Shown in pieces: positions 5,507 to 64,000 of a stretch of DNA of 64,000 bases; position 1 is the first letter of the stretch; each line of letters opens with the position of its first letter. The notes beneath the pieces were generated by a model. That model searched no databases. It was not told where the DNA came from and saw only the letters and a program-made list of their open reading frames with translations. The translations under genes and the position numbers were made by a program. The stretch is from Glycine soja (taxonomy: Eukaryota; Streptophyta; Magnoliopsida; Fabales; Fabaceae): positions 14,045,865-14,109,864 of the forward strand of contig NC_041005.1 of the NCBI RefSeq assembly GCF_004193775.1, written 5' to 3'.

Positions 5507-5609
5507 TTATCTTTTATTGAAAATAAAAGGTAGGTAAAGATAAGGACCCTAATTTCATACGAGCGATCTTGCTATTCAAAATCGGATGCCAGAGAAAAAA
5601 AAAGTGAAA

Positions 5610-27684: not shown

Positions 27685-27920
27685 GTTCTTTTGTAACACC
27701 TTTGTATAATCTTGGCTAGATGAAAGCTTTGTTCTTTTTATAAAATGAGAAGTTCTGGATTCATTACGTTATCTAAAAATCTTGGGGTGGATCCAAGTGC
27801 TCCGATCATCCATTTGCATACTCATGTTTTGGTGGCATACTCACTGTTGTTTATTTCTTTAGGAATTTCATCATAACTAAGAAAACACCAAGGCACCCCT
27901 ATAACACTCGATCCAAAAAA

Positions 27921-30900
27921 ATGGATAATGAAAAGGGCGTGCAAGAACAGATGAAGGCCGATCTATTGGCCTTAAAAGATCAAATGGCTTCCATCTTGGA
28001 AGTCATGTTAAAACTCCAGAAAACCATAGAGGATAAAGCCACGGCAACCGCCTCCAGTACAGTTAGGGAAGCGGAGCCGGTGCTGCAGCCCGCCTTGAAT
28101 CCGGGCCTAGACAGAAACACGGCCGTGTTCGGTCGAAGGTATAGTCCGCAAGCTTATCCTTATGGTTTGCCTCCGGACTTCACCCCCCGTGCCACCCCGG
28201 AAGAGTTAAGCCAAGCCCCTACTTTCGAGGGGCAACTCCCACCTTATGAAGACTATCCCGGGCAAGACAATGAGGAAGGAGATACCCATCTTGGCCCCCT
28301 GCACCACCTCAAAGATCCGTCCCTCCACGAACTACCCCAACCAAACATAGTCTGCCATATCCCGGCTTCACCCACACCTATAAAAGAATCTGTTCCCTTC
28401 GCGGAAGATAAAGGTAAGATGGAGGCGCTTGAAGAGAGGTTAAGAGCAGTCGAGGGCCTTGGCAATTACCCATTCTCGGATTTGGCAAATTTATGTCTCG
28501 TGCCCAACATCGTCATCCCTCCCAAGTTCAAAGTACCAGACTTTGATAAGTACAAAGGGACGACATGTCCAAATGGGCATCTCCGGATGTATTGCCGGAA
28601 GATGGGGGCGTATTCTGCGGACGAAAAGTTGTTGGTCCATTTCTTTCAAGACAGCTTGGCCGAGGCAGCTGTAGCATGGTATACCAATCTAGAAGCTTCC
28701 CAGATCCGATCATGGAAGGACTTGGCAACTGCCTTCATTAGGCAGTACCAGTACAATACGGACATGGCTCCCGATCGGAACCAGCTTCAGGGTATGACTA
28801 AACGAGAGCATGAGTCCATTAAGGAATATGCCGAGAGATGGAGAGATCTCGCAGCCCAAGTCGTATCGCCCATGACGGAGAGGGAGATGATCACAATTAT
28901 GGTAGATACGTTACCCACGTTCTACTATGAAAAGCTGATAGGCTACATGCCAGCTAACTTTGCGGATCTCGTCTTCGCCGGAGAAAGGATTGAATCCGGG
29001 CTACGAAAAGGCAAGTTCGAATATGCTGCCAATATGGCCCCCAAAAACAACAGAAGAGCCCCAGTAGTGGGCGCGAGGAAAAAGGAAGGAGACGCCCACG
29101 CGGTCACCACCGCCCCAACATGGATGAAAGCACCCCAAAATATCCAAAGCTCATACCAGCCCAATCCCCCAAATTTTTTAATCCGAGCCGGGAACTCCCT
29201 CCCGACTCAAGTAAAAGGACCACCCGCAGCAGAAAGAGTGCCGGCCCAACGCACAGCTCCAACCGCACCCCGGCCAGTTAATAATACAGCCCCCGGCGCG
29301 ACCTATAAATATGCACAGCACCCGAAAGACAACTTCCCTCCTATTCCCATGGCATACTCCGAGCTATGGCCTTCATTATTGGAGAATCATTTGGTGGTGG
29401 CCATACCCGGGAAGGTTCTCCAGCCACCCTACCCCAAGTGGTATGACCCGGGTGCCAAGTGTGTGTACCATAGTGGAGTTCCCGGACACAATATTAACTT
29501 CTGCATCCCGTTCAAGTATAAGGTGCAGCACCTGATTAGTGTCGGCTGGCTATCGTTTCAGGAGGAAGGCCCAAATGTTAAAACCAACCCGCTAGCTAGT
29601 CATGGAGGGGCTAGCGTGAATGCCGTCAAGGAGCATGGGCCACCACAGACAAAAAGGTTAGGAGAGGTAGCTACTTCTAGATGCTTCATCTATCAATCAC
29701 TGCAAGCGGCGTGCATGGTCTCCAGTGGTGGAGGCGAAAGGGATGAATGCTTGTTTCACCTCGGGGAGTCGCATGACATGGAAACCTATCCCACGGTAGA
29801 AGAATTGCTTCAGCGGCTCATGGATTGCGGGCAGCTTGAAGTGTCCATAGAAGAGGGGGAAGAACCACAAGTTTGCATGCAGTCGGAAGAGAAGAGGATT
29901 CCTCTAACCCCCAAGGCCCTAGTGATATGTTTTACTAGGAAAGGGATCGGCTCCACACCCATATACCCCCGGACGGCGCCCAAGCCAACGCCATTTGCAT
30001 ATCAAAGTAATAAGGTCGTTCCGTGGAGGTATACCCCTCCCACGTCCAGCGAAAGAATTACAACCGAAGTTGACTCTTTATCAGCTAAGGTAACCAACAT
30101 CACCGGTCTCAGTGGCGTAACTCGCAGTGGTCGGGTGTTCGCTGCCCCTCACCCGGTGGAATTTCCCTCCAAAGGGAAAGTGCCCATGGTCCAAGAGCCC
30201 ACAGATATAGCCACCCCCTCGAAAGGAATAGATCCTCCAGTGGTAAGAGGGGCCGAAAAGAAAGAAGGACTTCAAGGAAAAACAGTGACTTTGGAAGAGG
30301 CCCATGAGTTCCTCCGCCTCATCCAACAAAGCGAGTTTAAGGTAGTCGAGCAACTGAATAAAACTCCAGCAAGGATCTCTTTGCTTGAACTACTCATAAA
30401 CTCCGAGCCTCATCGTGCGCTGTTGATGAAGGTTCTTAATGATGCCCATGTAGCACATGATATCTTAGTGGAGGGTTTCGAAGGCATCGTTAATCATATA
30501 ACCACCAACAATTATATCGCGTTTGCGGAAGAAGAGATTCCCGTTGAAGGGAGAGGACACAACAAGGCTCTACATGTGTCGGTGAGATGTATGGACCACA
30601 TTGTCGCAAAGGTACTTATCGACAATGGATCGAGTTTAAATGTAATGCCAAAGACCACTTTGGAAAAGCTTCCTTTTAGTGCGTCACGTTTAAAACCGAG
30701 CTCGATGGTGGTGCGAGCCTTTGATGGTACTCGGCGGGAAGTAATGGGGGAAATCGACATTCCCATTCAGATAGGCCCCCACACTTGCAATGTGGTGTTT
30801 CAAGTAATGGATATAAATCCCGCCTATAGCTGCCTCTTGGGAAGACCGTGGATTCATGCCCTGGGAGTGGTTCCTTCAACGCTTCACCAGAAATTGAAGT

Positions 30901-31454
30901 TCGCAGTGGGTGGACTTTTAGTGATAGTGTCGGGTGAAGAGGACATGTTAGTGAGCTGCCCTTCCTCCACACCGTACGTAGAAGCGGCAGAAGAATCGTT
31001 GGAAACGGCTTTCCAATCCTTTGAGGTTGTGAGCTGCGCCTCTGTGGAACCAAGTCCGTCGCTACCTTCTCTCTCCAACACGGCCATAATGGTGGCGCGT
31101 GTTATGCTCAGGAATGGATTTGAGCCTGGAATGGGTCTAGGCAAAGACTGCCTCGGGAATGCCGACGTGATCAATATCAAGGGAAATCCATACAAGTATG
31201 GATTAGGGTATGAACCCGGGATGCCGGGGAGGAGGAACGTGCCGTCAAGATTTCGGGCGGATAGGGTATGGCCCGGCCGTATTAGCCAGTGTTTCACCAG
31301 CGCTGGAATGGTGTTCGAGGAGGAGGTGGCCACAATAGAAGAGGAGTTCCCTCAAGACCAACCAAGTTTTGTGCAACCATGCCACCCCGATTCCCAAGTG
31401 GGGAACTGGCGCGTGATAAGCCAGTCAAAAGTCTATACCGCTGATTCAATGTAA
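27921..31454 (+). CDS. gag-pro: Gag-protease polyprotein of element D
   Basis: An open frame of 1177 codons. Residues 1-45 are a probable coiled coil. The capsid-like Gag domain spans about 185-370 (FKVPDFDKYKGT at 202, WYTNLEAS at 252, RWRDLAAQ at 305). A CHHC-like knuckle (CVYHSG...GH...C) sits near 513. The aspartic protease carries VLIDNGSS near residue 898, with DNG in place of the usual DTG/DSG, a form I associate with Tat-lineage elements. A G-patch-like block (NGFEPGMGLGKDCLG) lies at about 1056-1096. The printed stop at 31452-31454 falls inside the predicted intron, so the spliced product would run into pol. A pyrimidine-AG site (TTTATTTCTTTAG) ends at 27862, 58 bases before the start. 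The frame is undamaged. Confidence 0.93.
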   Translation: MDNEKGVQEQMKADLLALKDQMASILEVMLKLQKTIEDKATATASSTVREAEPVLQPALNPGLDRNTAVFGRRYSPQAYPYGLPPDFTPRATPEELSQAPTFEGQLPPYEDYPGQDNEEGDTHLGPLHHLKDPSLHELPQPNIVCHIPASPTPIKESVPFAEDKGKMEALEERLRAVEGLGNYPFSDLANLCLVPNIVIPPKFKVPDFDKYKGTTCPNGHLRMYCRKMGAYSADEKLLVHFFQDSLAEAAVAWYTNLEASQIRSWKDLATAFIRQYQYNTDMAPDRNQLQGMTKREHESIKEYAERWRDLAAQVVSPMTEREMITIMVDTLPTFYYEKLIGYMPANFADLVFAGERIESGLRKGKFEYAANMAPKNNRRAPVVGARKKEGDAHAVTTAPTWMKAPQNIQSSYQPNPPNFLIRAGNSLPTQVKGPPAAERVPAQRTAPTAPRPVNNTAPGATYKYAQHPKDNFPPIPMAYSELWPSLLENHLVVAIPGKVLQPPYPKWYDPGAKCVYHSGVPGHNINFCIPFKYKVQHLISVGWLSFQEEGPNVKTNPLASHGGASVNAVKEHGPPQTKRLGEVATSRCFIYQSLQAACMVSSGGGERDECLFHLGESHDMETYPTVEELLQRLMDCGQLEVSIEEGEEPQVCMQSEEKRIPLTPKALVICFTRKGIGSTPIYPRTAPKPTPFAYQSNKVVPWRYTPPTSSERITTEVDSLSAKVTNITGLSGVTRSGRVFAAPHPVEFPSKGKVPMVQEPTDIATPSKGIDPPVVRGAEKKEGLQGKTVTLEEAHEFLRLIQQSEFKVVEQLNKTPARISLLELLINSEPHRALLMKVLNDAHVAHDILVEGFEGIVNHITTNNYIAFAEEEIPVEGRGHNKALHVSVRCMDHIVAKVLIDNGSSLNVMPKTTLEKLPFSASRLKPSSMVVRAFDGTRREVMGEIDIPIQIGPHTCNVVFQVMDINPAYSCLLGRPWIHALGVVPSTLHQKLKFAVGGLLVIVSGEEDMLVSCPSSTPYVEAAEESLETAFQSFEVVSCASVEPSPSLPSLSNTAIMVARVMLRNGFEPGMGLGKDCLGNADVINIKGNPYKYGLGYEPGMPGRRNVPSRFRADRVWPGRISQCFTSAGMVFEEEVATIEEEFPQDQPSFVQPCHPDSQVGNWRVISQSKVYTADSM

Positions 31455-31602
31455 TTAGAGCCTATAGATTTCCGTTCTCTTTTGTTTTGTGAAACCTACC
31501 TTATTAAATAAACAAAGAGATCTTGTTTCATCTGTTCTTGCAATACCACCCTTTCTCATATCATTTTGCATGTTTATGTTTCTTTTGTCTTGTTTGGTAT
31601 AG
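31451..31602 (+). other. Predicted 152-bp intron between gag-pro and pol
   Basis: The donor is AAT|GTAATT and the acceptor is TTGTTTGGTATAG|A, with a T-rich tract before it. Removing these bases deletes the gag-pro stop and joins the two frames exactly: two bases of one codon come from exon 1 and one from exon 2, reading S-I-Y-E-G-R-F-F. Splicing at this place is published for Ogre elements of legumes. The pairing of these exact sites is my inference from phase and consensus. Confidence 0.8.
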
Positions 31603-34600
31603 ATATGAGGGCCGATTCTTTGAGGATCCTAACAACGAGGGTTTGACGATCGATTTTGATCGAGATATAAGCCAAACGATAAACGAGGAAGAGGAAGTGG
31701 ACGTCCTGTCACCAGAGTTGGAGAGGTTGGTCGCTCAAGAAGAACATGAAATGAAGCCTCACCAAGAAGAAACCGAATTGGTAAACTTGGGGACCACAGG
31801 GGAAAAGAAAGAAGTGAAGGTAGGAACCGGTATGACCGCGCCTATCCGCCAAGGCTTGATAACCCTTCTTGAAGAGTATCAAGATGTCTTCGCGTGGTCA
31901 TATCAAGACATGCCCGGTCTAGATTCCAACATTGTGCAGCATAAGTTGCCTTTGAATCCTGGGTCTTCCCCGGTTAAGCAAAAGTTGCGAAGAATGAGAC
32001 CCGAGATGTCTTTAAAAATTAAGGAAGAGGTTAGGAAGCAATTTGACGCAGGTTTTTTAGCTGTGGCTCGATACCCGGAGTGGGTGGCCAACATTGTCCC
32101 AGTCCCAAAAAAGGACGACAAGGTTCGAATTTGTGTAGACTACCGGGACTTGAACCGGGCCAGTCCAAGGGACAATTTTCCCCTGCCACACATTGACATA
32201 TTGGTAGATAATACAGCCAAGTTCGCCCTTTTCTCATTTATGGATGGTTTCTCGGGGTATAATCAAATAAAGATGGCGCCCGAAGATATAGAGAAGACCA
32301 CTTTCGTCACCCTATGGGGGACATTTTGCTATAAAGTGATGGCCTTCGGGTTGAAAAATGCTGGGGCAACCTATCAGCGTGCCATGGTGGTGTTGTTCCA
32401 TGACATGATGCATAAGGAAATAGAGGTCTATGTAGATGACATGATTGCTAAGTCTCGGACTGAGGACGAACACCTTGTCAATCTGCGTAAGCTGTTTGGA
32501 AGGTTGCGGAAATACCAATTAAAACTAAACCCAACCAAGTGCACCTTTGGGGTGAAGTCGGGGAAGCTGCTAGGATTTATCGTAAGTCAGAAAGGGATAG
32601 AGATAGATCCCGAGAAGGTGAAGGCCATCCTTGAAATGCCGGAACCACGCACGGAGAAGCAGGTTCGGGGGTTTTTGGGCAGGTTGAATTATATCGCGAG
32701 ATTTATCTCGCAACTCACCCCTACCTGTGAGCCCATTTTTAAGCTATTACGTAAGAACCAAGCGGTCCTATGGAACAGTGACTGCCAAGAGGCCTTCGAG
32801 AAGATCAAACAGAGTCTCACGAATCCCCCGGTGCTGGACGAGTCTATGGGGTGCGTATTGGGTCAGCATGATGATTCTGGAAAAAAGGAGCAAGCCATCT
32901 ACTATCTAAGCAAGAAGTTTACCGCATGTGAGATGAATTACTCAATGTTGGAAAGGACGTGTTGTGCTCTGGTATGGGCATCACATCGGCTTAGGCAGTA
33001 CATGCTCAGCCATACCACGTGGCTTATTTCCAAAATGGATCCCATGAAATACATCTTTGAAAAACCGGCCCTCACGGGACGAATCGCTAGGTGGCAGGTA
33101 CTATTATTTGAATTCGATATCGTTTACGTCACCCAAAAGGCGGTAAAGGGAAGTGCCTTAGTGGATTATTTGGCCCAGCAACCCCTCCAGGATTATCGGC
33201 CGATGCACCCCGAGTTCCCAGATGAAGATATCATGGCCCTGTTTGAAGAGAAGCAGACGCATGAGGACCTAGACAAATGGATTGTTTGCTTCGATGGGGC
33301 ATCAAATGCTTTGGGCCACGGAGTAGGGGCAGTCCTTGTATCCCTGGATGATCGGTGTATTCCTTTCACGGCTAGGCTAGGTTTTGATTGTACCAACAAT
33401 ATGGCCGAGTACGAAGCGTGCACCCTCGGGGTTTAGGCGGCCATTGATTTTGATGTAAAATTACTCAAGGTGTATGGAGACTCAGCTTTGGTGATACGCC
33501 AGTTGAAAGGAGAATAGGAAACTAGGGATTCGAAGTTGATACCCTATCAAACTCACATCTTGAGGTTAGCCAAGTACTTTGACGATATTTCCTTCCACCA
33601 CATACCTCGGGAAGAGAATCAAATGGCTGATGCATTAGCCACCCTGGCATCCATGTTTCAACTTGCCCCACACGGGGATCTGCCGTACATCGAATTCAAA
33701 TCTCAAGGCAGGCCGGCATATTGTTATGCAATAGAGGAAGAGTGGGATGGGAAACTGTGGTATTTCGACATCAAGCAGTATGTCGAGAACAAAGAATACC
33801 CACCAGGGATTTCTGACAATGACAAAAGGACATTGAGGAGATTGGCTACTGGTTTCTTTGTAAGTGGTACCATCCTGTACAAACGAAACCACGACATGAC
33901 CCTCCTACGATGCGTGGATGCCAAAGAGGCAAACTTCATGATTGAGGAGATCCACGAGGGTTCCTTTGGGACACGTGCTAATGGGCATGCTATGGCCAGA
34001 AAAATCCTTAGGGCCGGTTATTATTGGCTCACCATGGGAAGTGATTGCTGCGCTCATGTAAGGAAATGTCATAAATGTCAGGCATACGCGAACAATGTCA
34101 ATGTTCCGCCACATCCTCTGAATGTTATGTCCGCCCCTTGGCCCTTTTCCATGTGGGGAATAGATGTCATTGGGACCATCGAGCCCAAAGCGTCGAATGG
34201 TCACTGCTTCATTCTTGTGGCGATAGATTACTTCACCAAATGGGTCGAAGCAGCTTCTTATACTAATGTCACAAGGAATGTGGTGGTTAGATTCATAAAG
34301 AAGGAGTTGATTTGTCGATACGGACTCCCCAGGAAGATCATTACTGACAATGGCACCAATCTGAACAACAAGATGATGCAGGAAATGTGCGAGGACTTCA
34401 AAATCCAACATCATAACTCTACCCCTTATCGGCCAAAGATGAATGGGGCTATAGAGGCTGCAAATAAGAATATTAAGAAGATTGTTCAAAAGATGACAGT
34501 GTCATACAAAGATTGGCATAAGATGTTGCCTTTCGCCCTACACGGATACAGAACCTCGGTGCGAACTTCTACTCGGGCAACGCCGTATTCCTTGGTTTAT

Positions 34601-35005
34601 GGGATGGAGGCAGTACTCCCATTTGAGGTAGAGGTTCCTTCTCAGAGGATAATGGCGAAGTCAGGCCTAAAAGCGTCAGAATGGGCTCAAGCGCGCTACG
34701 ACCAACTTAACCTTATTGAAGGTAAGCGTTTGGCCGCCATGAGCCATGGACGTTTGTATCAACGAAGGATAAAGAACGCATTCGACAAGAAGGTACGCCC
34801 GCGCAAGTTCAACGAGGGGGACCTCGTGCTGAAGAAGATGTCCCACGCTGTTAAAGATAATCGAGGCAAGTGGGCCCCGAATTATGAAGGACCTTTCGTG
34901 GTGAAAAGAGCTTTTTATGGGGGTGCTCTGATACTCACCCACATGGATGGCGAGGAGTTGCCCTCGCCCGTGAACTCCGATGTAGTTAAACGATATTACG
35001 CTTGA
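31603..35005 (+). pseudogene. pol: Pol of element D: RT, RNase H x2, integrase; two premature stops
   Basis: RT spans about 32050-32560, with YVDD at 32429-32440. The first RNase H follows (YYLSKKFTACEMNYSMLER), but in front of it NPPVL is joined directly to DESMGCVLG, so an in-frame block of about 19 residues usual in the family is missing. The second, archaeal-type RNase H starts WIVCFDGASN (Asp codon at 33293). It contains two in-frame TAG codons, 33434-33436 and 33515-33517. Integrase follows with an HHCC zinc region (H..H near 33955-33985, CHKC near 34069) and catalytic Asp 34163, Asp 34346, Glu 34454, and ends RYYA-stop. Each stop is one transition from CAG or TGG. An earlier ATG at 31523 in the ORF reading lies in the intron and is not a start. 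Confidence 0.9.
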
Positions 35006-35639
35006 AGTCTGGGGCAATCGAGAAGACCATTGCATGTTCTTTTAATTCTGAGTTTTTGTTCTTCCTGGTTTCCTCCAGGGATTCCCTTCCTCTGTATTTT
35101 TCTTGTTCTTTTAAAAAAGCGAAAAGATATGCGAGGTTTTAGTCCTCCTTTCGGTTTCAAACTTTGTGCGTTAGATTTGTTATAAGCATGAGCCCTCTTC
35201 GCTCGGTGTATGGGGTGCCCCAAATGCTTATTTAAAATTGAACCTAACCAGCCTTCACTAAAATAAAATCATTGCATTAGAAACACGAGCAGAATCGTCT
35301 CGGGCCACGATCAGAAGTCAAGACAAGTCCATGGCAGGAATCAACCAAGGTAAGACGATGACCGGTCACGATTGGTCGCGTATCATTTGGCTCTTACTTG
35401 CAGGTACTTAGGGATGGAAGCGAATGGAGGATAGGATCGCGACCTACCAAGCGCCACCCCTTCCCGGCGCTAAACGAGCAGAGAACGTCGCTGCAGGGGC
35501 AGCCCAGTATCCTTTGTGTTCGTAGTTTCTTTTGCTATTATTTGTTTTAAATAAGTAATCGGCACCTAATTCTAATTTAAGTAAGTTCAAGTAGGCAAAC
35601 GCTAACCCGTAAGGGAGGAGGGGACATGGTTAATGTTCC
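35006..35639 (+). other. Region between pol and the ORF3 promoter-like segment
   Basis: No coding potential is recognisable. The stretch is not LTR. It ends in an A-run at 35645-35654. Confidence 0.6.
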
Positions 35640-35856
35640 CCTCAAAAAAAAAAATGTGGCAGGTTAGCTCACCTGGGCGAGCAACCCCTGCATTCAAAAT
35701 ATAAAAACGAGGGAGGGGAACGTTTTTGGCATCCAAAAACTCCCCCCCCCCCCCTCATTCAAAAGAAAGAACACGAAGGCTTGCGGTTCTTGCCCCCTCA
35801 AGCTACTTTTGGTTGCCTTTTGCTTTCATTTTTGGTGTTATTGTTCACTCCAACAA
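35640..35856 (+). promoter_or_regulatory. Internal promoter-like segment before ORF3
   Basis: CTCACCTGGGCGAGC (35669-35683) is followed by ATATAAAAACGAGGGAGG (35699-35716), then a leader that ends CAACAA|GTAAGT at 35857. The order GCGAGC word, TATA box, G-rich start, leader, GTAAGT donor copies that of this element's own LTR. It could drive a separate ORF3 transcript. A C-run lies at about 35743-35754. Confidence 0.5.
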
Positions 35857-36862
35857 GTAAGTATTCCATCCTTGATGTTTTTGCTTCCCATTGGTACATT
35901 TTCTTCATCTTTTGGTACTCTAAATTGTGAGAACATGCTTATATTTGTGGGGAAGTTTTGGTTTGTTTTTGGTGCTTGTTTTCTTGAATTGAGGATTTGA
36001 ATGAAAAGGCCTTAGGCCTAGGTTGTATTCTGAAGCAATGGGGCATGCCACATTGTCCCCATCCTCTTGCAATTTGTGTCCAAATGTGCACCCACCAAGT
36101 GCTCGGTGAAATGCCCCAATGATATATGAATATGATTTTGCAAATTGGGATGGTGGGGCTGTTTTATGAGACGGCATAGGAAAGTCAAAATAGATGCCCA
36201 AATGCAATCCCAAGCTTAGGAACCCAAACTTGTTAAGCTTCAATGCAAGAAAACACACTCATGACTAGGAACCCAAAATTTGGTTTTAGAATTAGAAAAG
36301 CATGAAAATAGGGACTTGTTTGTAAGAATTTGGGCTGCCCCATGATTGGTACTTTGCACCTAACTAATGTGGGAAATGCTTTTCAATGGTGGGTAGATAC
36401 ATAGGTAAATATAAGGAGCATGAAATTCCTAGCAAAGTGTGAATGATGTATGATAGTATGGAATGCCTTTTTGAATGCAAGTGTGTGCATAATGTAAATA
36501 GCTTGCCAATATGAATAAATGTGAATGAAACAATAAAAAAAATTTTGTGATATATATTTCAAACATATGTAGGTAGTTTGTAAATAGCAAATGTTTAAGA
36601 TATAAATTAGGTGTAAAGTTTGACGCCACACTTTGAGCATGAAAGTGTGTTTTCTTTTTCAGAATGTATTTAGGTATATGGCAATTAGAATATGTTGGAT
36701 GTTCTGGTATGTTGACATGAGTAATAGGATATTTTCTACAAATACGCGTGTGCATGAATGGATCATATGAGTTTGGTCTAAATCAGAGGGATTAGCACAA
36801 CCTTTTTGCGTTAAGATAAGTGTTATCTTGTAAAGCTAGCTTCTGAATGTTTGTTCTCGCAG
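35857..36862 (+). other. Putative 1-kb 5'-UTR intron of ORF3
   Basis: Starts with a consensus donor GTAAGTATT and ends TTTGTTCTCGCAG, after which GAAATGGCC gives the ORF3 start codon. It has no open frame of note and contains many stops. Inferred from sequence only. Confidence 0.5.
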
Positions 36863-36865
36863 GAA

Positions 36866-38113
36866 ATGGCCCCGAGGAAACTTGCCTCAAAGAGATCCAG
36901 GAAGGATAAAGCGGCCGAAGGGACTAGTTCCGCTCCCGAGTATGATAGTCACCGCTTTAGGAGCGCTGAACACCAGCAGCGCTTCGAGGCCATCAAGGGA
37001 TGGTCATTTCTCCGGGAGCGATGCGTCCAGCTCAGGGACGATGAGTATACCGATTTCCAGGAGGAGATAGTTCGCCGGCGGTGGGCATCGCTGGTCACCC
37101 CCATGGCCAAGTACGATCCAGACATAGTCCTTGAGTTTTATGCCAATGCTTGGCCAACAGAGGAGGGCGTGCGTGATATGAGGTCCTGGGTAAAGGGTCA
37201 GTGGATCCCGTTTGATGCAGATGCTATCGGCCAGCTCCTGGGATATCCTTTAGTGCTGGAAGAGGGCCAGGAGTGCGAGTATGGCCAGAGGAGGAACCGG
37301 TCTGATGGGTTCGATGAGGAGGCCATCGCCCAGTTGCTATGTATACCGAGGCAAGATTTTGCCCGGACTGCTGCCGGGAGACGGGTTCGGATCATGCGCA
37401 CCAACATGACCACCCTGACTCAGATATGGATGACTTTGCTGCTCAGCAACATCCTGCCCAGCGATCATAATTCTGACCTCCCCCTGCCGAAGTGTCAGCT
37501 GGTGTACGCCATCCTAACGCGGATGAGCATTCATGTGGCTCAGTTAATCGCTGATGTCATCTATATATTTGCAAGTATGGCGCCTACCAGGCACCCTCTG
37601 GACCCGGATAAGTCCAACAGGGCCCTGGGATTTCCCGCCTTGATCACAGGACTCTGCCAGTCGTTCGGCGTCCCCGTCGCACCTAGCAATGTGATTCGGT
37701 CGTCCATCACCCGAGCTTTTATTGAGAAGTACTGCACGCAGAGACAGGTCCAGGGTGATGCACCACAGGCCGCGGACGCGCCGCCACCTCATCAGGCTGG
37801 TCCAGCCGGATCGTTTGATACGGAGTAGTATCTGCGGCATTTGGTTCGCCAGCAGGCGGCCAACCACCGGGCACATGTACAGACCCATGATTGTCTTTAT
37901 CAGATGAGTCTCAGCCTGCAGGGCCAGGGTTTTACTTCTTTTCCGTGCCCTACTCCGGACCAGTTCAGGGCAGAGGTCGCATGGCCTGGAGATTGGCCTG
38001 AGGCCCAGGCAGGAGAGGCACCAGCAGAGGCTCCTGACGAGGCAGATGAGGCCCGCGAGGACGAAGAAATGACCGATTTACTTGATTTCTTAGGAGGAAG
38101 CGGGGCCACATGA
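36866..38113 (+). pseudogene. ORF3 of element D: plant transposon-associated protein, one stop
   Basis: The ATG at 36866 follows an acceptor-like CAG by three bases; the frame actually opens upstream with a TTG, which I do not accept as start. It holds 416 codons with one TAG at 37826-37828. A basic N-terminus (KLASKRSRKDKAAE) could be a nuclear localisation signal. The main domain (about residues 35-285) includes FYANAWP, IPFDADAIGQLLG, LLCIP, TTLTQIW and ALGFPALITGLC. The C-terminus is very acidic (DEADEAREDEEMTDLLDF). The domain is the uncharacterised one annotated in plants as a putative plant transposon protein; it recurs at 43696-45159 and as a remnant at 54400-55100. Function unknown. 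Confidence 0.75.
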
Positions 38114-47983: not shown

Positions 47984-48397
47984 TTCATCCTTTTTTTAGA
48001 GTGGGCATGCGCTTAGTGAATGAATGCTCGCTTAGTGCCATTCAGGCCACAAGAAATTGGGCTTAGCGCAGGCTGTCTGTGCTTAGCGTGCAACCACGTT
48101 CGCTGAGCGAGTGAACACTCGCTTAGCCCAATTTAGATTAAATCGAATTAGGCTTAGCTCACATAGGGCTCACTTAGCATGCCCAATCATCTTGAAAGAC
48201 AAGGGTTGTGTGCTCAATGCAAGCAATGCTGGCTTAGCGCATGAGATTGATGCGCTCAACGCGAGTTATGCGCTTAGCGAGTGGACTGAATTAAAAAAAA
48301 ATTCCAAGTTATTTTAGTCCACTTTCTCATAGAACTTAAGTAACCCCAATTTTCCAATATAGAATAAGCTGATATTCCCTAATGCAACAATTATGAG
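47984..48397 (-). mobile_element. Element F, further leader sequence
   Basis: More CTTAGCG words (48010-48280). It is cut by element E; its last five bases are ATGAG, the expected left target duplication of E. The right copy lies outside the window. Confidence 0.6.
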
Positions 48398-50558
48398 TGT
48401 CGCAACCTACCCTTCGGCGGGAGGGCGACGCGAGACTCGCGGGATGCGTGTTCCACGAAAGGAATACGCGCGGAGTCGCCACCAACGTTTATTTGAGGAA
48501 AACGTCGGAAAAACCGGAAAAGACGCTATCTACGAACTTTTAAGTAAAAGGTTCGGGAGTTGTATTTACGCACGGGGAAGGTATTAGCACCCCACACGTC
48601 CGTCCCAAGGGACGGCAGCCTTTAATCGAATGTGCAAACATGACTTTGATTTTTACGTTCCCTTTTATGTCCTTATATCCTTTATACCCTTTTTATATTT
48701 TTTCTTTTTTGTGGTCGACAAGGGTGTTTCCCTTTGCTCCTACGTATTCCTCAATTTGGGATGAGAAAATCAGACCTACGTAGTTCTTTCGGAACAAAGT
48801 GTTTGGTTTAAGTTTGTTTTTTGTCTTTTTTGCAAAATATGTTTTTTATTTGAACAAAAGGTCATTTAAGGTGTTGGACCATTAAACGGTCTTTTGATTT
48901 TGAAAGGAGAGAAACGTTAAGGCATTGGACCATTAACGATCTCTTGTTTTTGAAAGGAGAGAAACGTTAAGGCATTTGGACCATTAACGATCTCTTGGGG
49001 TGGTCGACAAAAGCGGGGCTTTTGCTCCTACGTATCCTCAATTGCGATGAGGAAATCAGACCTACGTAGTTCTTGCAAAAGCGGTAAAGTCACATGTTGA
49101 TTTTATGCTTTTGAACGGTCCATGTTAACCGATAAAAGCAAAGAGGACCGTTTAAGGCGTTGGACCTTAAAACGGTTTTTAGTGATTTTTCGAAAAAAAC
49201 TTGATTTGTGAGTTGATTTTAGTCTTAGTTTCACTTTGGTTATTAATCAATTCATTCAAGGAAACTTCCAAAGAAAAACGTCCGATTGATTTTTTTTTTT
49301 ATTATTATTTTATTCAAAGATATTTTGATTATTTTATTATTATTTTTCAAGATATTTTGATTATTTTATTATTATTTTACTTTTTTTGGTTTAACCGAGG
49401 TTATAGCGTGAACGATCGGTTAGATTTCGTTTTAAAAGTGATTAAATGAGATTACAACACAAATGATCGGTTGAAATTCATTTTATCATTTATTAGATGA
49501 GAAAACGGCTTAAATAAACGGTAAAAGCGCGTTAAAAACGGAAGAAAAGAAAACTGAAAGTAAACGAAATTAAAGTGAAAGTACACAAAACAAGAAATGA
49601 ATTGAAAGTCTCGAATTCGAAAACTTACCCGTTGAAGAACGAAGAACGAACGAAGAACGGATGAAGAACGGTGAAGAACGATGAAGAATTTCCACAGAAT
49701 CGCTTACGGAAGCGTTTCGGAAGCACCTCGGCTTAGATTTTCTTCACGGAAACGATTTTTCCAAGCAAATTCGAAAGAGAGAGAAGTGCCAAAGGGGCTG
49801 AACCTTTTGAAACAGCTCCCCCCTCCCCTATTTATAGAAAAAAGGGAGGTGCTTGCCGCCCAAAGACTTAATGAAGAAGATTTCTAAGCGCACCCGAATT
49901 ACTAAGTTCACCCCCCTTTTCGTATTTTACGGAAAAGTTACGAAAGCCTTACGGAACTGTTTTCGAATTTGATTTTCATCTTTTTTCTCTTCCCTTTCAC
50001 CAATGTTAAGTGGAATATGCTTACCCAATGTTTTCGGAAATTTTACGGAAGTATTACGGAAGCCGCGGAAGCCCCGAAAACCATTTTTCAAAAACGTGGA
50101 GGAGCTTGCCGCCCAGTTGCTTCCTCCTTAAGCAACCCAACTTCCAAAATGTTCTAGAAGGGCCTAGATTTGAATTGCTATTTACACCCCTATCTTGATA
50201 AGTTCACCCCCTTACCTTTTTTGGTGATTCTTTTTTTCGTAAAGTTACGGAAACTTACGAATCTCGTAACGATACTTGTTTTCTTTCCGTAATGTTACGG
50301 AACCTTGCGGATTACATAATCATCCCCCTTTTGACTTACGGAATGTTACGGAATCTCACTTAATTATGCAACGATGCTTCCATTTGATTTCCGGTGTGTC
50401 ACGAAAAGTTACGGATTGTGCATCAATATTTTTTGGTTTTCCGGCATGTCCTGGAATTTCACAAATTGCCTAATGATGGGTGCCAAGCACCTCACAAGGA
50501 CCAAAGAAAGGTCGCATGTCATCAAGCAAAGGTCCCCGGACGAAATTAGGGTATGACA
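48398..50558 (-). repeat. 3' LTR of element E
   Basis: The minus strand reads TGTCATACCC...GTTGCGACA. TATA box (minus) at 49828-49837. Four hairpins with loop GGCGTTGGACC or variants lie near 48862-48895, 48912-48945, 48960-49000 and 49148-49180; a CTACGTAT/CTACGTAG imperfect stem occurs twice (near 48738-48785 and 49027-49065). The promoter-proximal part is dense in TTACGGA/TCCGTAA words (49920-50420). Reading frames here are shadows and recur in the other LTR. Confidence 0.95.
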
Positions 50559-50573
50559 GTTGCCCCTCTTTAC
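50559..50573 (-). promoter_or_regulatory. Polypurine tract of element E
   Basis: GTAAAGAGGGGCAAC on the minus strand, identical to that of D. Confidence 0.85.
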
Positions 50574-51039: not shown

Positions 51040-51148
51040 GAGGAACAAAAGGTGCAGAAGACTATGTCAGCCTCTGCATGCTATCAAGCGTTCTGTCTTA
51101 CAGATAGCAAAAGAATGTTTATACGGATAACCACTCGGGTATTTCCGC
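51040..51148. repeat. Diverged hairpin units before the 127-bp array
   Basis: Stems GCAGA...TCTGC (51056-51079), GCTATC...GATAGC (51080-51109) and CGGATAACC...GGGTATTTCCG (51124-51147) follow the order of the array that comes next, with different bases but kept pairing. Confidence 0.7.
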
Positions 51149-51949
51149 GTATCATCGGGCCCGCCGCCTCTGGATGATACAAGGGTGCAGAATGACCAAA
51201 TTTGGTCTCTGCTTGTCATCGGGCCCGCCGCCTCTGGATGACAAAAGGGTGCGGATAACCGTAAGGTATCTCCGCGTATCATCGGGCCCGCCGCCTCTGG
51301 ATGATACAAGGGTGCAGAATGACCAAACTTGGTCTCTGCTTGTCATCGGGCCCGCCGCCTCTGGATGACAAAAGGGTGCGGATAACCGTAAGGTATCTCC
51401 GCGTATCATCGGGCCCGCCGCCTCTGGATGATACAAGGGTGCAGAATGACCAAACTTGGTCTCTGCTTGTCATCGGGCCCGCCGCCTCTGGATGACAAAA
51501 GGGTGCGGATAACCGTAAGGTATCTCCGCGTATCATCGGGCCCGCCGCCTCTGGATGATACAAGGGTGCAGAATGACCAAACTTGGTCTCTGCTTGTCAT
51601 CGGGCCCGCCGCCTCTGGATGACAAAAGGGTGCGGATAACCGTAAGGTATCTCCGCGTATCATCGGGCCCGCCGCCTCTGGATGATACAAGGGTGCAGAA
51701 TGACCAAACTTGGTCTCTGCCTGTCATCGGGCCCGCCGCCTCTGGATGACAAAAGGGTGCGGATAACCATAAGGTATCTCCACGTATCATCGGGCCCGCC
51801 GCCTCTGGATGATACAAGGGTGCAGAATGACCAAACTTGGTCTCTGCTTGTCATCGGGCCCGCCGCCTCTGGATGACAAAAGGGTGCGGATAACCGTAAG
51901 GTATCTCCGCGTATCATCGGGCCCGCCGCCTCTGGATGATACAAGGGTG
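51149..51949. repeat. 127-bp tandem array, 6.3 copies, each with four hairpins
   Basis: Monomers start at 51149, 51276, 51403, 51530, 51657, 51784 and 51911. Within each: GTATCATC...GATGATAC, GCAGA..GACCAA/TTGGTC.TCTGC, TTGTCATC...GATGACAA and GCGGA...TCCGC. The first and third share the 16-base loop GGGCCCGCCGCCTCTG but have different stems. Copies are nearly identical. The 94- and 64-codon frames repeated here are period artefacts. Confidence 0.95.
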
Positions 51950-52240
51950 CACGTCACATGACCTCAGGGTCAGTATGACAAAGATTATGGGGCGGCCGAC
52001 AAAAGCAAGGCTCTTGCTCCTACGTATCCTCCAATGAGGAACTCAGACCTACGTAGTTCTGGATAATTTGTGAGACTTGAAAAGTCTCCATCGGAAAATG
52101 CTGACATCTCCGGAAAGGGCGCAGATGACCATATTGGCCTCTGCTCGTCAATCACACTTGGGGTGACTGAATGACGAGGTGCGGATAACCGTAAGGTGTC
52201 TCCGCGGGCTACCAGCTCTTGAGTCATGGCAACAAAAGGC
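51950..52240. repeat. Diverged hairpin units after the 127-bp array
   Basis: GCAGATGACCA...TCTGC (52119-52145), CTCGTCA...TGACGAG (52144-52178) and GCGGATAACC...TCCGC (52181-52206) repeat the order of stems of the array with new stem bases. 51990-52060 carries an LTR-derived word set, GCTCCTACGTAT and CAGACCTACGTAG. Confidence 0.75.
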
Positions 52241-53729: not shown

Positions 53730-54065
53730 GAGGTATTTTGCTACCTAAACATGTGTATATTTTTGTGAGGTATTTTTGCTATATACATGCATATCCAAGG
53801 TATCTTGCTACCTAAACATACATATATATGTTTTGTAAGGTATTTTTGCTGTATACATGCATATCCAAGGTATCTTTCTACCTAAACATACATATATATA
53901 TTTTGTGAAGTATTTTTTGTTTACATACATGCATATCTAAGGTATCTTTCTACCTAAACATACATATATATATTTTGTGAAGTGTTTTTTTGTTTACATA
54001 CATGCATATCTAAGGTATTTTCACTACCTAAACATACATATATATATTTTGTGAGGTATGACTAC
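53730..54065. repeat. Tandem repeat of about 85 bp, about four copies
   Basis: Unit: AAGGTATCTTTCTACCTAAA, then CATACATATATATATTTTGTGA, then a T-rich stretch and ATACATGCATATC. GGTATCT..CTACC and GGTA...TACC stems occur in each unit. Confidence 0.85.
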
Positions 54066-54399: not shown

Positions 54400-55100
54400 T
54401 GTTTCGCCCTGCGCCTGCCTGGGGGCGCAGCACTTCTTGATGAAAGCTCGATTAGTAGGGGGCCTGATGCCCTTGCTGGAGGTGACAGGTACTCCGTAGA
54501 ACTGACAGAGACCCGTAATTAGAGCTTGACAACTCCAAGACCCTGTTGGACTTCTTCGGGTCCACTGGGTGTCTTGCAGGCGCGATCCCTGCAAACAATA
54601 GATGAAATCAGAAATCAGTTGAGCGATGTGCATACTTACCTATGATGATGTGACCTTGTCGGGGGGGGGTACGGGCACCCTGTAGGACTGATAGAGGCCC
54701 GTAACCAGAGCTGGAAACCCCAGGGCCCTGTTGGACTTTTCCGGGTCCACTGGGTGTCTCTTGGGTGCGATCCCTGCAAACAATAGATGGTATCAGAAAT
54801 CAGTTGAACCATATGCATACTTACCCATGTCGGGACGACACAGACCAACTGATACTTTTGCAGGGGGAGATTGGCATTGCGGTCACTGGGCAGAATGTTG
54901 CTAAGTAGCAATGTCATCTATATCTGTGTAAGAGTGGTCATGTTGGTGCGCATGATCCGCACTCGTCTCTTTGCAGCGGCACGGGTGAAATCTTGCCCCG
55001 GTATGCATAGTAGCTGTGTGATAGCCTCCCTCTCTGGTTGTGCTCGCACAGTTGGTCGTCCTCCAATATCAGGGGGTGGCCCAGGAACCGTTAAAAGGAG
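54400..55100 (-). pseudogene. Remnant of ORF3 in element E, with internal duplication
   Basis: Minus-strand words TLLLSNILPSDRNANLPLQKYQLV (split over the reading) and ALITGLCQFYGVPV, then RAFIKKCCAPRQ, match D's ORF3 (LLLSNILPSDHN, ALITGLCQSFGVPV). The stretch LISD...IYCLQGS...DTQWTR...SPTG occurs twice (about 54480-54640 and 54680-54840), so about 200 bases are tandemly duplicated. Upstream, near 54950-55020, the antisense of a plus-strand frame gives the TNMTTLTQI region. Frameshifts and stops abound. Confidence 0.75.
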
Positions 55101-55164
55101 ACTACTGGTCCCTTAACCGGGAGTGCAAGTCTTGGTTAAGCATTTAAGGATAGAGGACCTTAAA

Positions 55165-56175
55165 TTCTCTTAAGGTGCGGATGTGGAGCACACTGAAAAT
55201 GAGGACACGTAGCCCTCTAAAGGTGAGGGTGTGCAACCCTCTCAAGGCGAGGATGTATAGTCCTCTGGAGGTGAGGGCGTGTAGTCCTCTCAAGGTGAGG
55301 GCGTGCAGCCCTCTGTTGGCGAGGACGTGTAGTCCTCTAAAGGTGAAGGCGTGTCGCCCTCTATTGGCGAGGACGTGTAGTCCTCTAAAGGTGAGGGCGT
55401 GTAGCCCTACGAAGGTGAGGACATGTAGTCCTCTGATGGCGAGGGCGTGTAGCCCTCTGAAGGTGAGGACGTGTGGTCCTCTAAAGGTGAGGGCGTGTAG
55501 CCCTACGAAGGTGAGGACATGTAGTCCTCTGAAGGTGAGGGTAACTAGTACCCAAGGCAAGGGCGAGTAGCCCTCTCAAGGCGAGGACGTGTAGTCCTCT
55601 GGAGGTGAGGGCGTGCAGCCCTCTGATGGTGAGGACATGTAGTCCTCTCAAGGCGAAGACGTGTAGTCCTCTGGAGGTGAGAGCGTGCAGCCCTCTGATG
55701 GTGAGGACATGTAGTCCTCTCAAGGCGAGGACGTTTAGTCCTCTAAAGGTGAGGGCGTGCAGCCCTCTGTTGGCGAGGACGTGTAGTCCTCTAAAGGTGA
55801 GGGCGTGTAGCCCTACATTGGCGAGCACGTGTAGTCCTCTCAAGGTGAGGGCGTGCAGCCCTCTGTTGGCGAGGACGTGTAGTCCTCTAAAGGTGAGGGC
55901 GTGTAGCCCTACGAAGGTGAGGACATGCAGTCCTCTAATGGCGAGGGCGTGTAACCCTCTGAAGGTGAGGACATGCAGTCCTCTGATGGCGAGGGCGTGT
56001 AGCCCTCTGAAGGTGAGGACACGTAGTCCTCTGATGGTGAGGGCGTGTAGCCCTCTGAAGGTGAGGACATGCAGTCCTCTGAAAGTGAGGACACACAGTT
56101 CTCTTAAGGTGAGGGCGTGCAGCCCTCTATTGGCGAGGACGTGTAGTCCTCTGAAGACCAGGGTACTAGTACCCG
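55165..56175. repeat. 24-bp hairpin minisatellite, about 41 copies
   Basis: The unit is GAGGACGTGTAGTCCTCTAA then AGGT, alternating with GAGGGCGTGTAGCCCTCT. Arms pair in most units: GAGGAC/GTCCTC or GAGGGC/GCCCTC, also GAGGGT/ACCCTC near 55226, and GGGTACTAGTACCC near 56160. Because 24 is a multiple of 3 every frame is open for long stretches (195 and 239 codons); these 8-residue repeat proteins are not called as genes. Confidence 0.95.
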
Positions 56176-57002
56176 AGGGTCCATCCTTATGAGAAAGCAA
56201 GAGATCGACTCATCGAGAGAGCCGGTCATCCCAAATTCAAAAGATTTCGACATTTAGATGTAGGGAATCTATGTAGTTAACATGATTTTGAGGGATGCAA
56301 ATGCATGCAACCTTTGTTGTGAAATTTGGGTAAATGCGGACTTTATATGAAACAATGCAATGTAATGGAAAGTTGTACAATGTTCATGGCATTTTTTCCC
56401 TTTTTTGTGATTTTGATTTTGATTTGATTTTTTTTTTTTTTTTGGAAAACACAGATTGACTGCCCTTTTGAAAAAGGTGATAATTCATGCAACCTCATCC
56501 TATCTTTTTGCAAATCTCTCCGGGAACTCCCTCAGAGTGTATGTTCTTTTTGATTTAGTCACTTGACCATTTTGGAGTGACGGCAATGGAGTCGTTTGAT
56601 GTTTAATCAATCCATTGAAATCCTAGGGTTTGTCCCTTTTTTTTTGTTAAAAACATCGATGGGTGAGAACTTTTGATCGGCCCCTATGTTCACTTGAGGC
56701 TCATGCACGGTGCCCCTCATTGCCCCAGTGTAAGGCTTTGAGGTACCAATCGTTTTCTTTCGTCATGACCTTGTAGGAGGGAACCTATTGGGTGAGAACT
56801 TCTAATCTGCCCCTAGGTTCACTTGAGGCTCATGCACGATGCCCCTCATTGCCCCAGTGTAAGGCTTTGAGGTACCAATCGTTGTCTTGTTTTCATAGCC
56901 TCGTAGTGAGGAAGAATGAAAGAAGCAGTTGATTCTTGCAAAAAGAATTTTCCAAGGACGAGAAATAGTTGAAGGATTTTTTGATGGATTAAGTCAAATG
57001 AC
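56176..57002 (-). other. 3' untranslated region of E, with a 129-bp duplication
   Basis: Colinear with 6566-7900 of element A. GGGTGAGAACTT...GAGGTACCAATCGTT occurs at 56661 and again at 56790; A has one copy. Confidence 0.75.
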
Positions 57003-58379: not shown

Positions 58380-60163
58380 ATGTGTGGCATCTCTTGTCAA
58401 TGTCAGGATTTACACGCGATTCTCCTCAAATTTCAGCCAGCCCGCATCAATTAGACCTTGCACCTTACGCCTGAGGGTCATACAGTGCTCAATGGAATGC
58501 CCCAGGGCTCCCCCACGATATGCACATGTTGCGTTCGAGTCATATCCTCAGAAAAATGGGGGTTTGAGGGAACCTAGCAGGGGTTATGGCTACCATTGCG
58601 TTATCAAGTAGATATGGGAGCAAGTTAGCATATGACACCGGAATTTGGGGTGAATCCTACAGGCTTTTCGCTGAAAAATTCATTTCTTGGTTGGTGTTTT
58701 TTTTGGTTTGTGCTAAAGGTGGTCTTCGTCATTGGAAGTGTGGTAGACAGGCTTTGTGGTTGATTTAGGGATGGCCTTTGTGGATAACTGGGTGGTGGGT
58801 AAGGAGGTGGTTTGTTATTGACTGAGTAATGACATTGTTGGGTTTGGTGGGAAACTTGGCCGTATAGGAATGGCAGTCACAGCATGGGTTTCTCCCTCAT
58901 CCTCACCCTCTTTATTTGCCCCAGTTTTCTCATTCGTCTAAGCAGGATGATTAAATTTGCCTCTTTTCAAATCCACTTCGATCCTTTCACTGGCAAAGAC
59001 CAAATCCGCAAAGCTTTGAGGGTGCGTAGCCCACCATCTTTTCATAGTAGAGTATCGATAATGTGTCTACCATCACGATTATCGTCTCCCTTTCCATCAT
59101 TGGGGGTACCACTTGGGCCGCCAGATCCCTCCACCTTTTGGGCGTGTTCTTTGAAAGATCCGTCCCCTTTTTTGCAAATGTTCTGTAGTTGCATCCTATC
59201 CAGAACCATATCAAAATTGTACTAATACTGCCTAACAAAGGCAACCATTAGGTCCTTCCAAGAATGGACTCGGGAAGGTTCCAAGTTAGTGTACCAGGTA
59301 ACAGCTACCCCAGTAAGACTTTCATGGAAGGAATGTATCAACAATTCCTCATCTTTTGCGTATTCCCCCATCTTCTGACAATACATCTTTAGATGGTTCT
59401 TGGGACAAGTAGTCCCCTTGTACTTGTCAAAGTCCAGCACCTTGAACTTGGGAGGGGTGATGATATTGGGTACTAGGAACAACTCTTTTAGGTTAGCAAA
59501 GGCATAATCTTCACCTCCTTCAATGGCCTTGAGCCTTTCCTCTAGATGATCCAACTTTCCCATTCCTGCCATAGTCATGAGGGTTTTTAACCGCTGTGGA
59601 ACGTGAGGGTTGTGGTTGTGGATGATATTGAGGGCCCTCCAAAGTGTTTTGCAGGGGTATACCACCAACTGCTTGCCCTTCAGCAGCATATCCGAGGCAA
59701 GGCTCGAAGTTGGCTAGATCGTGGTGGGGAATTTCATGTGTCTCCTCCATGGGTCGAGAGACATGTGCATGATCAGATTGAGGTTGTTGGCTCTTAATGA
59801 GTATGGGAGTGGAGTTATTGACATCCTCATTGGGAATGTACACCACATTGGGTGGTGTATAGTTTGGGAGGCAAACCATATGGCGGGAAGGCGTGCTTGT
59901 TTTGAATTTGTACATTATGGGGGCTGCCCGTACTTCCCAAATCTTTGCCTACCATATCTGAGGTTGGATGATTCATTTGGTTGATGCTGGATGGGGACAT
60001 CAGGTTCACCTTAGCAACAACGCTGGTAGCGGCAATTGCAACCGCATTGGCTTCCATTATCTTCTTCACGCTCATCATGGCCTCCATCATTGTGGCCATT
60101 TTCTCTTTGATGGCCTCCATGTCGGCCTTCATCTTCTCTTGTATCTCCTCTACTTCACCCATT
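58380..60163 (-). pseudogene. gag: gag remnant of element E
   Basis: The likely start is MGEVEEIQEKMKADMEAIKEKM at about 60163. A coiled-coil segment leads to a Pro-rich linker (frames ending 59827 and 59520), then the capsid block (59689-59222: FKVLDFDKYKGTTCP, WYTNLEPSRVHSWKDL), then RWRDLAAQVVPP near 59130 and a knuckle-side remnant near 58390-58470. At least three frameshifts separate the parts. It keeps no protease. The same layout in A shows that both descend from one ancestor that had already lost the rest. Confidence 0.85.
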
Positions 60164-61852: not shown

Positions 61853-64000
61853 TGTCGCAACCTACCCTTCGGCGGGAGGGCGACGCGAGACTCGCGGGAT
61901 GCGTGTTCCACGAAAGGAATACGCGCGGAGTCGCCACCAACGTTTATTTGAGGAAAACGTCGGAAAAACCGGAAAAGACGCTATCTACGAACTTTTAAGT
62001 AAAAGGTTCGGGAGTTGTATTTACGCACGGGGAAGGTATTAGCACCCCACACGTCCGTCCCAAGGGACGGCAGCCTTTAATCGAATGTGCAAACATGACT
62101 TTGATTTTTACGTTCCCTTTTATGTCCTTATATCCTTTATACCCTTTTTATATTTTTTCTTTTTTGTGGTCGACAAGGGTGTTTCCCTTTGCTCCTACGT
62201 ATTCCTCAATTTGGGATGAGAAAATCAGACCTACGTAGTTCTTTCGGAACAAAGTGTTTGGTTTAAGTTTGTTTTTTGTCTTTTTTGCAAAATATGTTTT
62301 TTATTTGAACAAAAGGTCATTTAAGGTGTTGGACCATTAAACGGTCTTTTGATTTTGAAAGGAGAGAAACGTTAAGGCATTGGACCATTAACGATCTCTT
62401 GTTTTTGAAAGGAGAGAAACGTTAAGGCATTTGGACCATTAACGATCTCTTGGGGTGGTCGACAAAAGCGGGGCTTTTGCTCCTACGTATCCTCAATTGC
62501 GATGAGGAAATCAGACCTACGTAGTTCTTGCAAAAGCGGTAAAGTCACATGTTGATTTTATGCTTTTGAACGGTCCATGTTAACCGATAAAAGCAAAGAG
62601 GACCGTTTAAGGCGTTGGACCTTAAAACGGTTTTTAGTGATTTTTCGAAAAAAACTTGATTTGTGAGTTGATTTTAGTCTTAGTTTCACTTTGGTTATTA
62701 ATCAATTCATTCAAGGAAACTTCCAAAGAAAAACGTCCGATTGATTTTTTTTTTTATTATTATTTTATTCAAAGATATTTTGATTATTTTATTATTATTT
62801 TTCAAGATATTTTGATTATTTTATTATTATTTTACTTTTTTTGGTTTAACCGAGGTTATAGCGTGAACGATCGGTTAGATTTCGTTTTAAAAGTGATTAA
62901 ATGAGATTACAACACAAATGATCGGTTGAAATTCATTTTATCATTTATTAGATGAGAAAACGGCTTAAATAAACGGTAAAAGCGCGTTAAAAACGGAAGA
63001 AAAGAAAACTGAAAGTAAACGAAATTAAAGTGAAAGTACACAAAACAAGAAATGAATTGAAAGTCTCGAATTCGAAAACTTACCCGTTGAAGAACGAAGA
63101 ACGAACGAAGAACGGATGAAGAACGGTGAAGAACGATGAAGAATTTCCACAGAATCGCTTACGGAAGCGTTTCGGAAGCACCTCGGCTTAGATTTTCTTC
63201 ACGGAAACGATTTTTCCAAGCAAATTCGAAAGAGAGAGAAGTGCCAAAGGGGCTGAACCTTTTGAAACAGCTCCCCCCTCCCCTATTTATAGAAAAAAGG
63301 GAGGTGCTTGCCGCCCAAAGACTTAATGAAGAAGATTTCTAAGCGCACCCGAATTACTAAGTTCACCCCCCTTTTCGTATTTTACGGAAAAGTTACGAAA
63401 GCCTTACGGAACTGTTTTCGAATTTGATTTTCATCTTTTTTCTCTTCCCTTTCACCAATGTTAAGTGGAATATGCTTACCCAATGTTTTCGGAAATTTTA
63501 CGGAAGTATTACGGAAGCCGCGGAAGCCCCGAAAACCATTTTTCAAAAACGTGGAGGAGCTTGCCGCCCAGTTGCTTCCTCCTTAAGCAACCCAACTTCC
63601 AAAATGTTCTAGAAGGGCCTAGATTTGAATTGCTATTTACACCCCTATCTTGATAAGTTCACCCCCTTACCTTTTTTGGTGATTCTTTTTTTCGTAAAGT
63701 TACGGAAACTTACGAATCTCGTAACGATACTTGTTTTCTTTCCGTAATGTTACGGAACCTTGCGGATTACATAATCATCCCCCTTTTGACTTACGGAATG
63801 TTACGGAATCTCACTTAATTATGCAACGATGCTTCCATTTGATTTCCGGTGTGTCACGAAAAGTTACGGATTGTGCATCAATATTTTTTGGTTTTCCGGC
63901 ATGTCCTGGAATTTCACAAATTGCCTAATGATGGGTGCCAAGCACCTCACAAGGACCAAAGAAAGGTCGCATGTCATCAAGCAAAGGTCCCCGGACGAAA
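61853..64000 (-). repeat. 5' LTR of element E, last 13 bases outside the window
   Basis: Same content as 48398-50545 at a fixed offset. TATA (minus) near 63283-63292; leader donor GGGTAAGT (minus) near 63078-63085. Reading frames inside are LTR shadows. Confidence 0.95.

Follow-up and report, generated by a model that had tools for sequence, protein, structure and literature searches.

A 24-bp hairpin minisatellite in Glycine soja is probably a tandem repeat of the 3' part of an Ogre-type element. Its two unit types would have been multiplied together as a dimer and carried to new loci by the element, and present mutation ignores the hairpin. The array lies in a 64,000-nucleotide stretch of contig NC_041005.1 (the window). 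The paired changes in its stems are mostly one old change that was copied many times; they do not reveal a new copying or folding system.

The array comprises 39 units of 24 bp and one unit of 22 bp, and all are hairpins with a 6-bp stem. Each 24-bp unit has a 6-bp stem, a 5-nt loop, and a 7-nt spacer, with 12 stem and 12 non-stem columns. The 24-bp units lie at 55201-55536 and 55559-56158, with the 22-bp unit between them. On the + strand, 220 of the 234 stem cells are Watson-Crick, 3 are G-T, and 11 are mismatched. The initial annotation, made from the sequence alone, had placed about 41 hairpins of 24 bp at 55165 to 56175, and these are real. The rarer GAGGGT/ACCCTC unit that it listed is present once, at 55225, and is the sole two-sided change outside stem pair 5 among the 39 units. 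There are also two GGGTA(A)CTAGTACCC palindromes as described, one starting at 55537 and one at the array end (56159-56174).

Stem pair 5/13 is A-T in 20 of the 39 units and G-C in 17. The other two are intermediates of the kind annotated initially, an A/C unit at 55201 and a G/T unit at 55273. In order, the unit types at this pair read mGAwGAGAGAGAG..., and the near-perfect alternation makes a 48-bp dimer whose two unit types are distinguished by a single stem pair, A-T in one and G-C in the other. The TRF periods for the array include 48 and 72 bp. We found that 30 of 30 loci, the window's own included, open with an identical mispaired unit and show an identical alternation; the G/T unit is in fourth place in 28 of them. 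Therefore, the unit order is inherited. With the GAGAGA order in the window and in all 30 loci, the array is a higher-order tandem repeat, in which alternating monomers were amplified as a longer unit.

Coding by the array was considered and rejected. Its two long frames (195 and 239 aa) result from the unit length being a multiple of three, stop codons recur in the other frames, and the 22-bp unit puts the reading out of frame. Four Glycine soja proteins named "Dynein heavy chain" (P0123, P0125, P0127, and P0131) contain long minisatellite translations, and this naming is likely an annotation artefact of the repeat's open frames. The array's translated frame is also matched by P0138, a Rokubacteria protein whose repeats resemble it in composition, probably by low-complexity chance. 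Matches to Rfam families in the window numbered 0, so the array is not a known Rfam RNA. In a scan of viral contigs, the 17-nt core of the unit matched 11 stretches once apiece, which we took as chance.

The array sits in a non-autonomous LTR retrotransposon that is complete, about 15.6 kb long, and on the minus strand, from 48398 to 64013. Its LTRs are identical over 2148 nt, as direct repeats starting at 48398 and 61853, and have TGTC...GACA ends. The target duplication ATGAG is found on both outer sides, the far side being read from locus L092. LTRs on both sides, each bounded by TG...CA, together with a short duplication of the target site, identify an LTR-retrotransposon insertion. The sense of the host is minus, because its gag, 3' ORF, and LTR match those of a + strand autonomous neighbour in inverted orientation. 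The gag and 3'-ORF remnants, between which the array sits, are the only parts of the host found to be related to the neighbour's genes. Among named database proteins, those of Glycine max and Glycine soja match the neighbour's ORF1 protein best, with up to 96% identity. In two database proteins from other copies, P0125 (Glycine soja) and P0174, the array and PF20167 are joined in one frame.

The host is a recently inserted, non-autonomous element, probably of Ogre type (Ty3/gypsy), with the Ogre label coming from the neighbour's gene order. We take this order to be a mark of Ogre elements (PMC3305785, Figure 1 legend). An extra ORF before gag, a gag-pol of gypsy order, and 3' tandem repeats would be expected of such an element. 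Three further repeats were noted in and around the elements. At 50559-50620, just upstream of the polypurine stretch at the 3' LTR, lies an inverted repeat that is long but imperfect and has the sense sequence CTTTACTTTCCTTTTAT ... ATAAAAGACAAGTAAAG; a similar one is found in a related element at about 5490-5545. The segment AACTACGTAGGTCTGAGTTCCTCATT.GAGGATACGTAGGAGCAAGAGCC occurs twice within 52000-52340, about 240 bp apart, and looks like a conserved 3'-region motif. A 123-bp tandem repeat is present in two inverted copies, about 92-95% alike, one in the 3' region of the autonomous element (39943-40367) and the other between the two elements (46453-47699).

Table 1. Positions in the window of the 24-bp array, its host element, and related features.
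Feature	Position	Strand
24-bp hairpin minisatellite, two unit types as 48-bp dimer	55201..56158	- (sense of host element)
22-bp variant unit, GGGTA...TACCC palindrome, phase shift 2	55537..55558	-
Terminal palindrome containing GGGTACTAGTACCC, at one array end	56159..56174	.
Two decayed units at the other array end, outside the 39 counted	55153..55200	-
3' LTR of host element (TGTCATACCC ... GGTTGCGACA in sense)	48398..50558	-
5' LTR of host element, continuing 13 nt beyond the window to the equivalent of 64013	61853..64000	-
Target-site duplication ATGAG; other copy just beyond the window (L092 114-118)	48393..48397	.
gag remnant, DNA 71% identical to 28503-28994 of the autonomous neighbour	58977..59470	-
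3'-ORF remnant, DNA 76% identical to the neighbour's PF20167 ORF (37318-37677); downstream of the array in sense	54671..55029	-
Autonomous neighbour: ORF1 (DUF7745), gag-protease, RT-RNase H, integrase, 3' ORF (PF20167)	25816..37828	+
127-bp array of alternating hairpins H and K, 3' region of host element	51138..51951	-
70-bp array, host element, strongly folding	53731..54059	-
34-bp hairpin array, related element	5615..6513	-

We searched the 1.01-Gb genome for copies. The array as query gave at least 75 matches from the 40 scored of 3207 first-look candidates, and its right flank had a match in 40 of the 40 scored (of 1858 first-look candidates). From 80 array loci (L012-L091), 12 were set aside as identical copies, which left 48 close loci, including the window's own, and 20 diverged loci. 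Units that differ from the 17-nt core at more than 4 positions, 22-bp units, and decayed end units are left out of the counts. The 42 whole arrays among the close loci have 23 to 82 units; the 6 further close arrays run to the locus edge, and their 57 to 100 units are minimum sizes. The diverged arrays have 6 to 47 units in the 16 whole ones, and 4 more reach the locus edge. Mispaired unit types are among the common ones, being present in 27 to 46 of the 48 close loci.

The covariation signal of the 24-bp array comes from pair 5/13. Naive covariation exceeds column shuffling, as 0 of 500 shuffles reach the observed score for the whole array. However, the excess is gone without pair 5/13: 93 of 100 cells then pair, against a shuffle mean of 92.3, and 537 of 2000 shuffles reach 93. 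The observation that both stem arms change together thus holds at pair 5/13 and fails elsewhere, where a single unit of the 39 is compensated. We also ran a neutral duplication simulation with a similar unit diversity. In it, 69-76% of stem cells stayed paired, versus 95% observed, and at none of five mutation rates, with 150 runs each, did a run produce a pair covarying like pair 5. The simulation is crude, with arbitrary turnover and event number and a perfect-hairpin start, and serves only to caution that stem pairing here exceeds what free drift would give.

To count private mutations, we took unit types that occur in at most 2 close loci and are one substitution from a type in at least 5. 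The 48 close loci gave 161 such single changes, with 85 in the stem, 25 in the loop, and 51 in the spacer, or 85 stem versus 76 unpaired events. At C/G sites, the private rate per 1000 opportunities was 4.29 in stems and 4.24 elsewhere (P = 1.0); this analysis counts 86 stem events, not 85, as parents were chosen slightly differently. G-U pairing was judged in the sense of the host element (minus), not on the + strand. In that sense, private changes from Watson-Crick parents produced 24 G-U pairs, 28 A-C pairs, and 30 other mispairs (G-U versus A-C, P = 0.68). Complementarity of the arms means that G-U and A-C are expected 1:1 from mutation alone, except under a strand-biased mutation process. 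None of the 36 private double changes in the close loci falls within one stem pair, and only 1 of the 161 single changes restores a pair. These results show that present copies mutate without regard to the hairpin. The 24-bp array is thus not a covariation-conserved RNA structure: one pair covaries, the others are near chance, and private changes are neutral. Private mutations presumably fall mostly in dead copies, and therefore the private data are compatible with constraint during the element's active life.

Shared variants gave a different ratio. In a minimum spanning tree of the 31 unit types present in at least 10 of the 48 loci, there were 8 changes in the ten stem columns outside pair 5 and 37 in the twelve unpaired columns. 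Private events over the same columns numbered 73 in the stem and 76 unpaired (Fisher P = 0.0002 against the shared counts). With distinct variants counted, the shared numbers were 5 versus 19 (P = 0.014). In the window, mean heterozygosity was 0.067 in stem columns outside pair 5 and 0.281 at unpaired sites (P = 0.003), and all 20 diverged loci likewise show lower variability in these stem columns than at unpaired sites. Among these diverged loci, shared and private variants showed no contrast (21:33 versus 156:255), but there the private variants also include older ones. It is only the shared variants that suggest hairpin constraint, or hairpin-favoured amplification, while the lineage was active.

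The diverged copies contain the intermediate forms at pair 5. In 630 diverged units, this pair is A-T in 278, G-C in 194, G-T in 121, A-C in 24, and other in 13. In 15 database proteins that translate other copies, it reads in sense A-U in 39, G-U in 26, G-C in 24, and A-C in 0 of 89 units; we kept 93 of 97 matched units, of which 89 could be scored, and two of the 15 proteins are near-identical over the array. Of the 20 diverged loci, 19 have GTCCTC as their majority right arm, and the left arm carries A or G. The G-U form is one step from both the A-T and the G-C type. Therefore, stepwise change explains both types, and a simultaneous double change is not needed. The pair-5 table fits sense RNA pairing without requiring it, as a three-haplotype history yields an identical table. 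Across the 307 distinct 17-mers of the 20 diverged loci, compensated doubles observed and expected were 7 and 7.3 at pair 1, 2 and 0.4 at pair 2, 1 and 2.5 at pair 3, 0 and 1.1 at pair 4, and 9 and 5.6 at pair 6. At pairs 1 to 4 and 6 of the 630 units, 157 G-U-type and 178 A-C-type cells reveal no G-U preference.

Other hairpin arrays lie in the same elements. The DNA adjoining the 34-bp array (6627-6956) is homologous to that adjoining the 24-bp array (56330-56652). The 34-bp array has one compensated switch, and its G-C form occupies a terminal position among the counted units in each of the 6 copies read. The chain of H and K hairpins extends within 51040-52340, in the 127-bp array and beside it. 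H1 (GTATCATC/GATGATAC) and H2 (TTGTCATC/GATGACAA) have a common loop and differ by exactly two compensated pairs. In 46 H units from four copies, H pair 1 is G-C in 26, T-A in 16, and other in 4, and H pair 3 is A-T in 19, G-C in 25, and other in 2. The H search pattern fixes five right-arm bases, so H pairs 4-8 carry no evidence. A third type, GTGTCATC/GATGACAC, is one pair from H1 and one pair from H2; it makes up 4 of the 9 H units of the diverged copy L101, and the remaining 5 are mispaired forms. K alternates between GCGGA/TCCGC and GCAGA/TCTGC. The H/K region is absent in 2 of the 5 loci examined (L098 and L100). The H/K switches are real compensated changes, though few events in few copies (four), and the chain is a better case of true covariation than the 24-bp array.

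These arrays also fold strongly. The first 480 nt of the 24-bp array, on the sense strand, had z = -9.9 against 60 dinucleotide shuffles, a value that the repeated hairpin inflates. The z scores were -6.7 for the 34-bp array, -6.3 for the 127-bp array, -9.1 for the 70-bp array, and -4.7 and -1.8 for the two 123-bp arrays; three control stretches gave -0.1, -0.8, and -2.4.

We suggest the following history for the 24-bp array. The founding unit may have happened to be a small inverted repeat. The A-T and G-C types at pair 5 became coupled in a 48-bp dimer, which then multiplied and travelled with the element, as the order shared among copies shows. The apparent double change most likely consisted of two single steps via the G-U type that is common in related arrays. 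The whole-unit length differences seen among copies may reflect duplication and deletion of unit blocks.

The initial annotation had read the paired changes either as selection on the RNA or single-stranded cDNA fold or as a templated process that copies one arm onto the other. A templated process, such as hairpin or cruciform correction, would change both arms at once, and it could account for A-T/G-C unit types, and for H1 and H2, that differ in their stems by paired changes only. However, its expected products were not seen among the private changes, neither as doubles in one pair nor, with one exception, as restored pairs, and related arrays hold G-U, A-C, and other half-way forms as stepwise change predicts. 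Arm-to-arm templating is therefore very improbable. Once copying is considered, compensated changes show no general excess over uncompensated ones and pair 5 alone covaries, which takes away most of the case that had been made from the stems. The initial reading keeps partial support from the shared variants, which spare the stems compared with private ones, and from the compensated switches of the 127-bp array.

Selection on the fold has no current sign, with stems unprotected and G-U not preferred. It might still have kept the hairpin in the active lineage, if private changes look neutral because they arose after insertion, in dead copies. The deficit of stem changes in shared unit types, the less variable stems of the diverged loci, the 89 protein-derived units with G-U but no A-C at pair 5, and the compensated switches in H and K all point this way. 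Nevertheless, we consider it unlikely, since G-U is not preferred at other pairs even in older, diverged arrays, compensated doubles outside pair 5 are near chance, and mispaired units are themselves common to many copies. In addition, arrays ranging from 6 to more than 80 units mean that no single hairpin can be essential. The same deficit of stem changes in shared relative to private unit types would be produced if well-folding units were duplicated more often, by slipped or switched strands during replication or reverse transcription, which would leave stems intact without a function. The tandem arrays of these elements do outfold their shuffles, yet three other repeats in the window (45, 51, and 164 bp) also reach z scores of -3.2 to -5.1. 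An idea of this kind has been discussed for the human MSY1 hairpin minisatellite (PMC2599865). These data do not separate such amplification from selection, and the mispaired types among the common units speak against it as well; we regard it as quite unlikely. The comparison of genomic copies thus favours inheritance of an amplified two-type dimer, with unit order inherited and private changes neutral, and leaves shared variants that avoid stems.

Arrays of this kind are already known, as far as the published descriptions go, from the Tat/Ogre 3'-region tandem repeats (PMC7004042) and the soybean Gmr9 minisatellites (PMC3305785). The Gmr9/GmOgre minisatellites have units of 26, 38, 37, 105, and 43 bp (Mogil et al. 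2012, PMC3305785). Like the array here, they come from Glycine, lie downstream of the coding region in an LTR retrotransposon, which is Ogre-type as the present host probably is, and show interleaved unit types and large copy-number variation between elements. However, 24 bp is not among their five unit lengths, and the likeness is one to the published description; the parts of that account consulted contain no hairpin analysis (PMC3305785). The Tat/Ogre 3' UTR carries hypervariable tandem repeats (Macas et al. 2009, as cited in the Lathyrus study PMC7004042). These are likewise short 3'-region arrays whose unit sequence and length differ between elements, but the present array has a gag remnant on one side and a 3'-ORF remnant on the other. 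The terms "hairpin" and "secondary structure" are absent from the main text of PMC7004042. MSY1 on the human Y chromosome has 25-bp units that are predicted hairpins and are of few types, and its hairpin was suggested to take part in length mutation (PMC2599865). Unlike the alternating dimer here, its unit types occur in blocks, and it is not described, in what we consulted of PMC2599865, as lying within a retrotransposon. Titles and abstract openings searched, with most subscription journals outside the coverage, contained no report of hairpin covariation in such arrays, which is a weak negative.

The array illustrates how tandem repeats can look like RNA covariation: a single old pair with two types, multiplied within a dimer, is enough to beat a column shuffle (0 of 500). 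Comparing private with shared variants among the copies in a genome offers a simple control, and it works without modelling how the repeats were copied. A wider proposal, which we put forward tentatively and consider doubtful, is that Ogre-type elements carry 3' hairpin chains whose stems are maintained in active elements by selection on the transcript or cDNA fold or by hairpin-driven amplification. If so, the array families would record a few compensated switches (pair 5 of the 24-bp array, one pair of the 34-bp array, two of H, and one of K), and private mutations in dead copies would be a built-in neutral baseline. The function of the soybean Ogre 3' arrays is stated as unknown in PMC3305785. 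The signal left here, in shared variants that avoid stems and in the compensated H and K hairpins, makes a possible function of Ogre 3' repeats testable with whole-genome copies.
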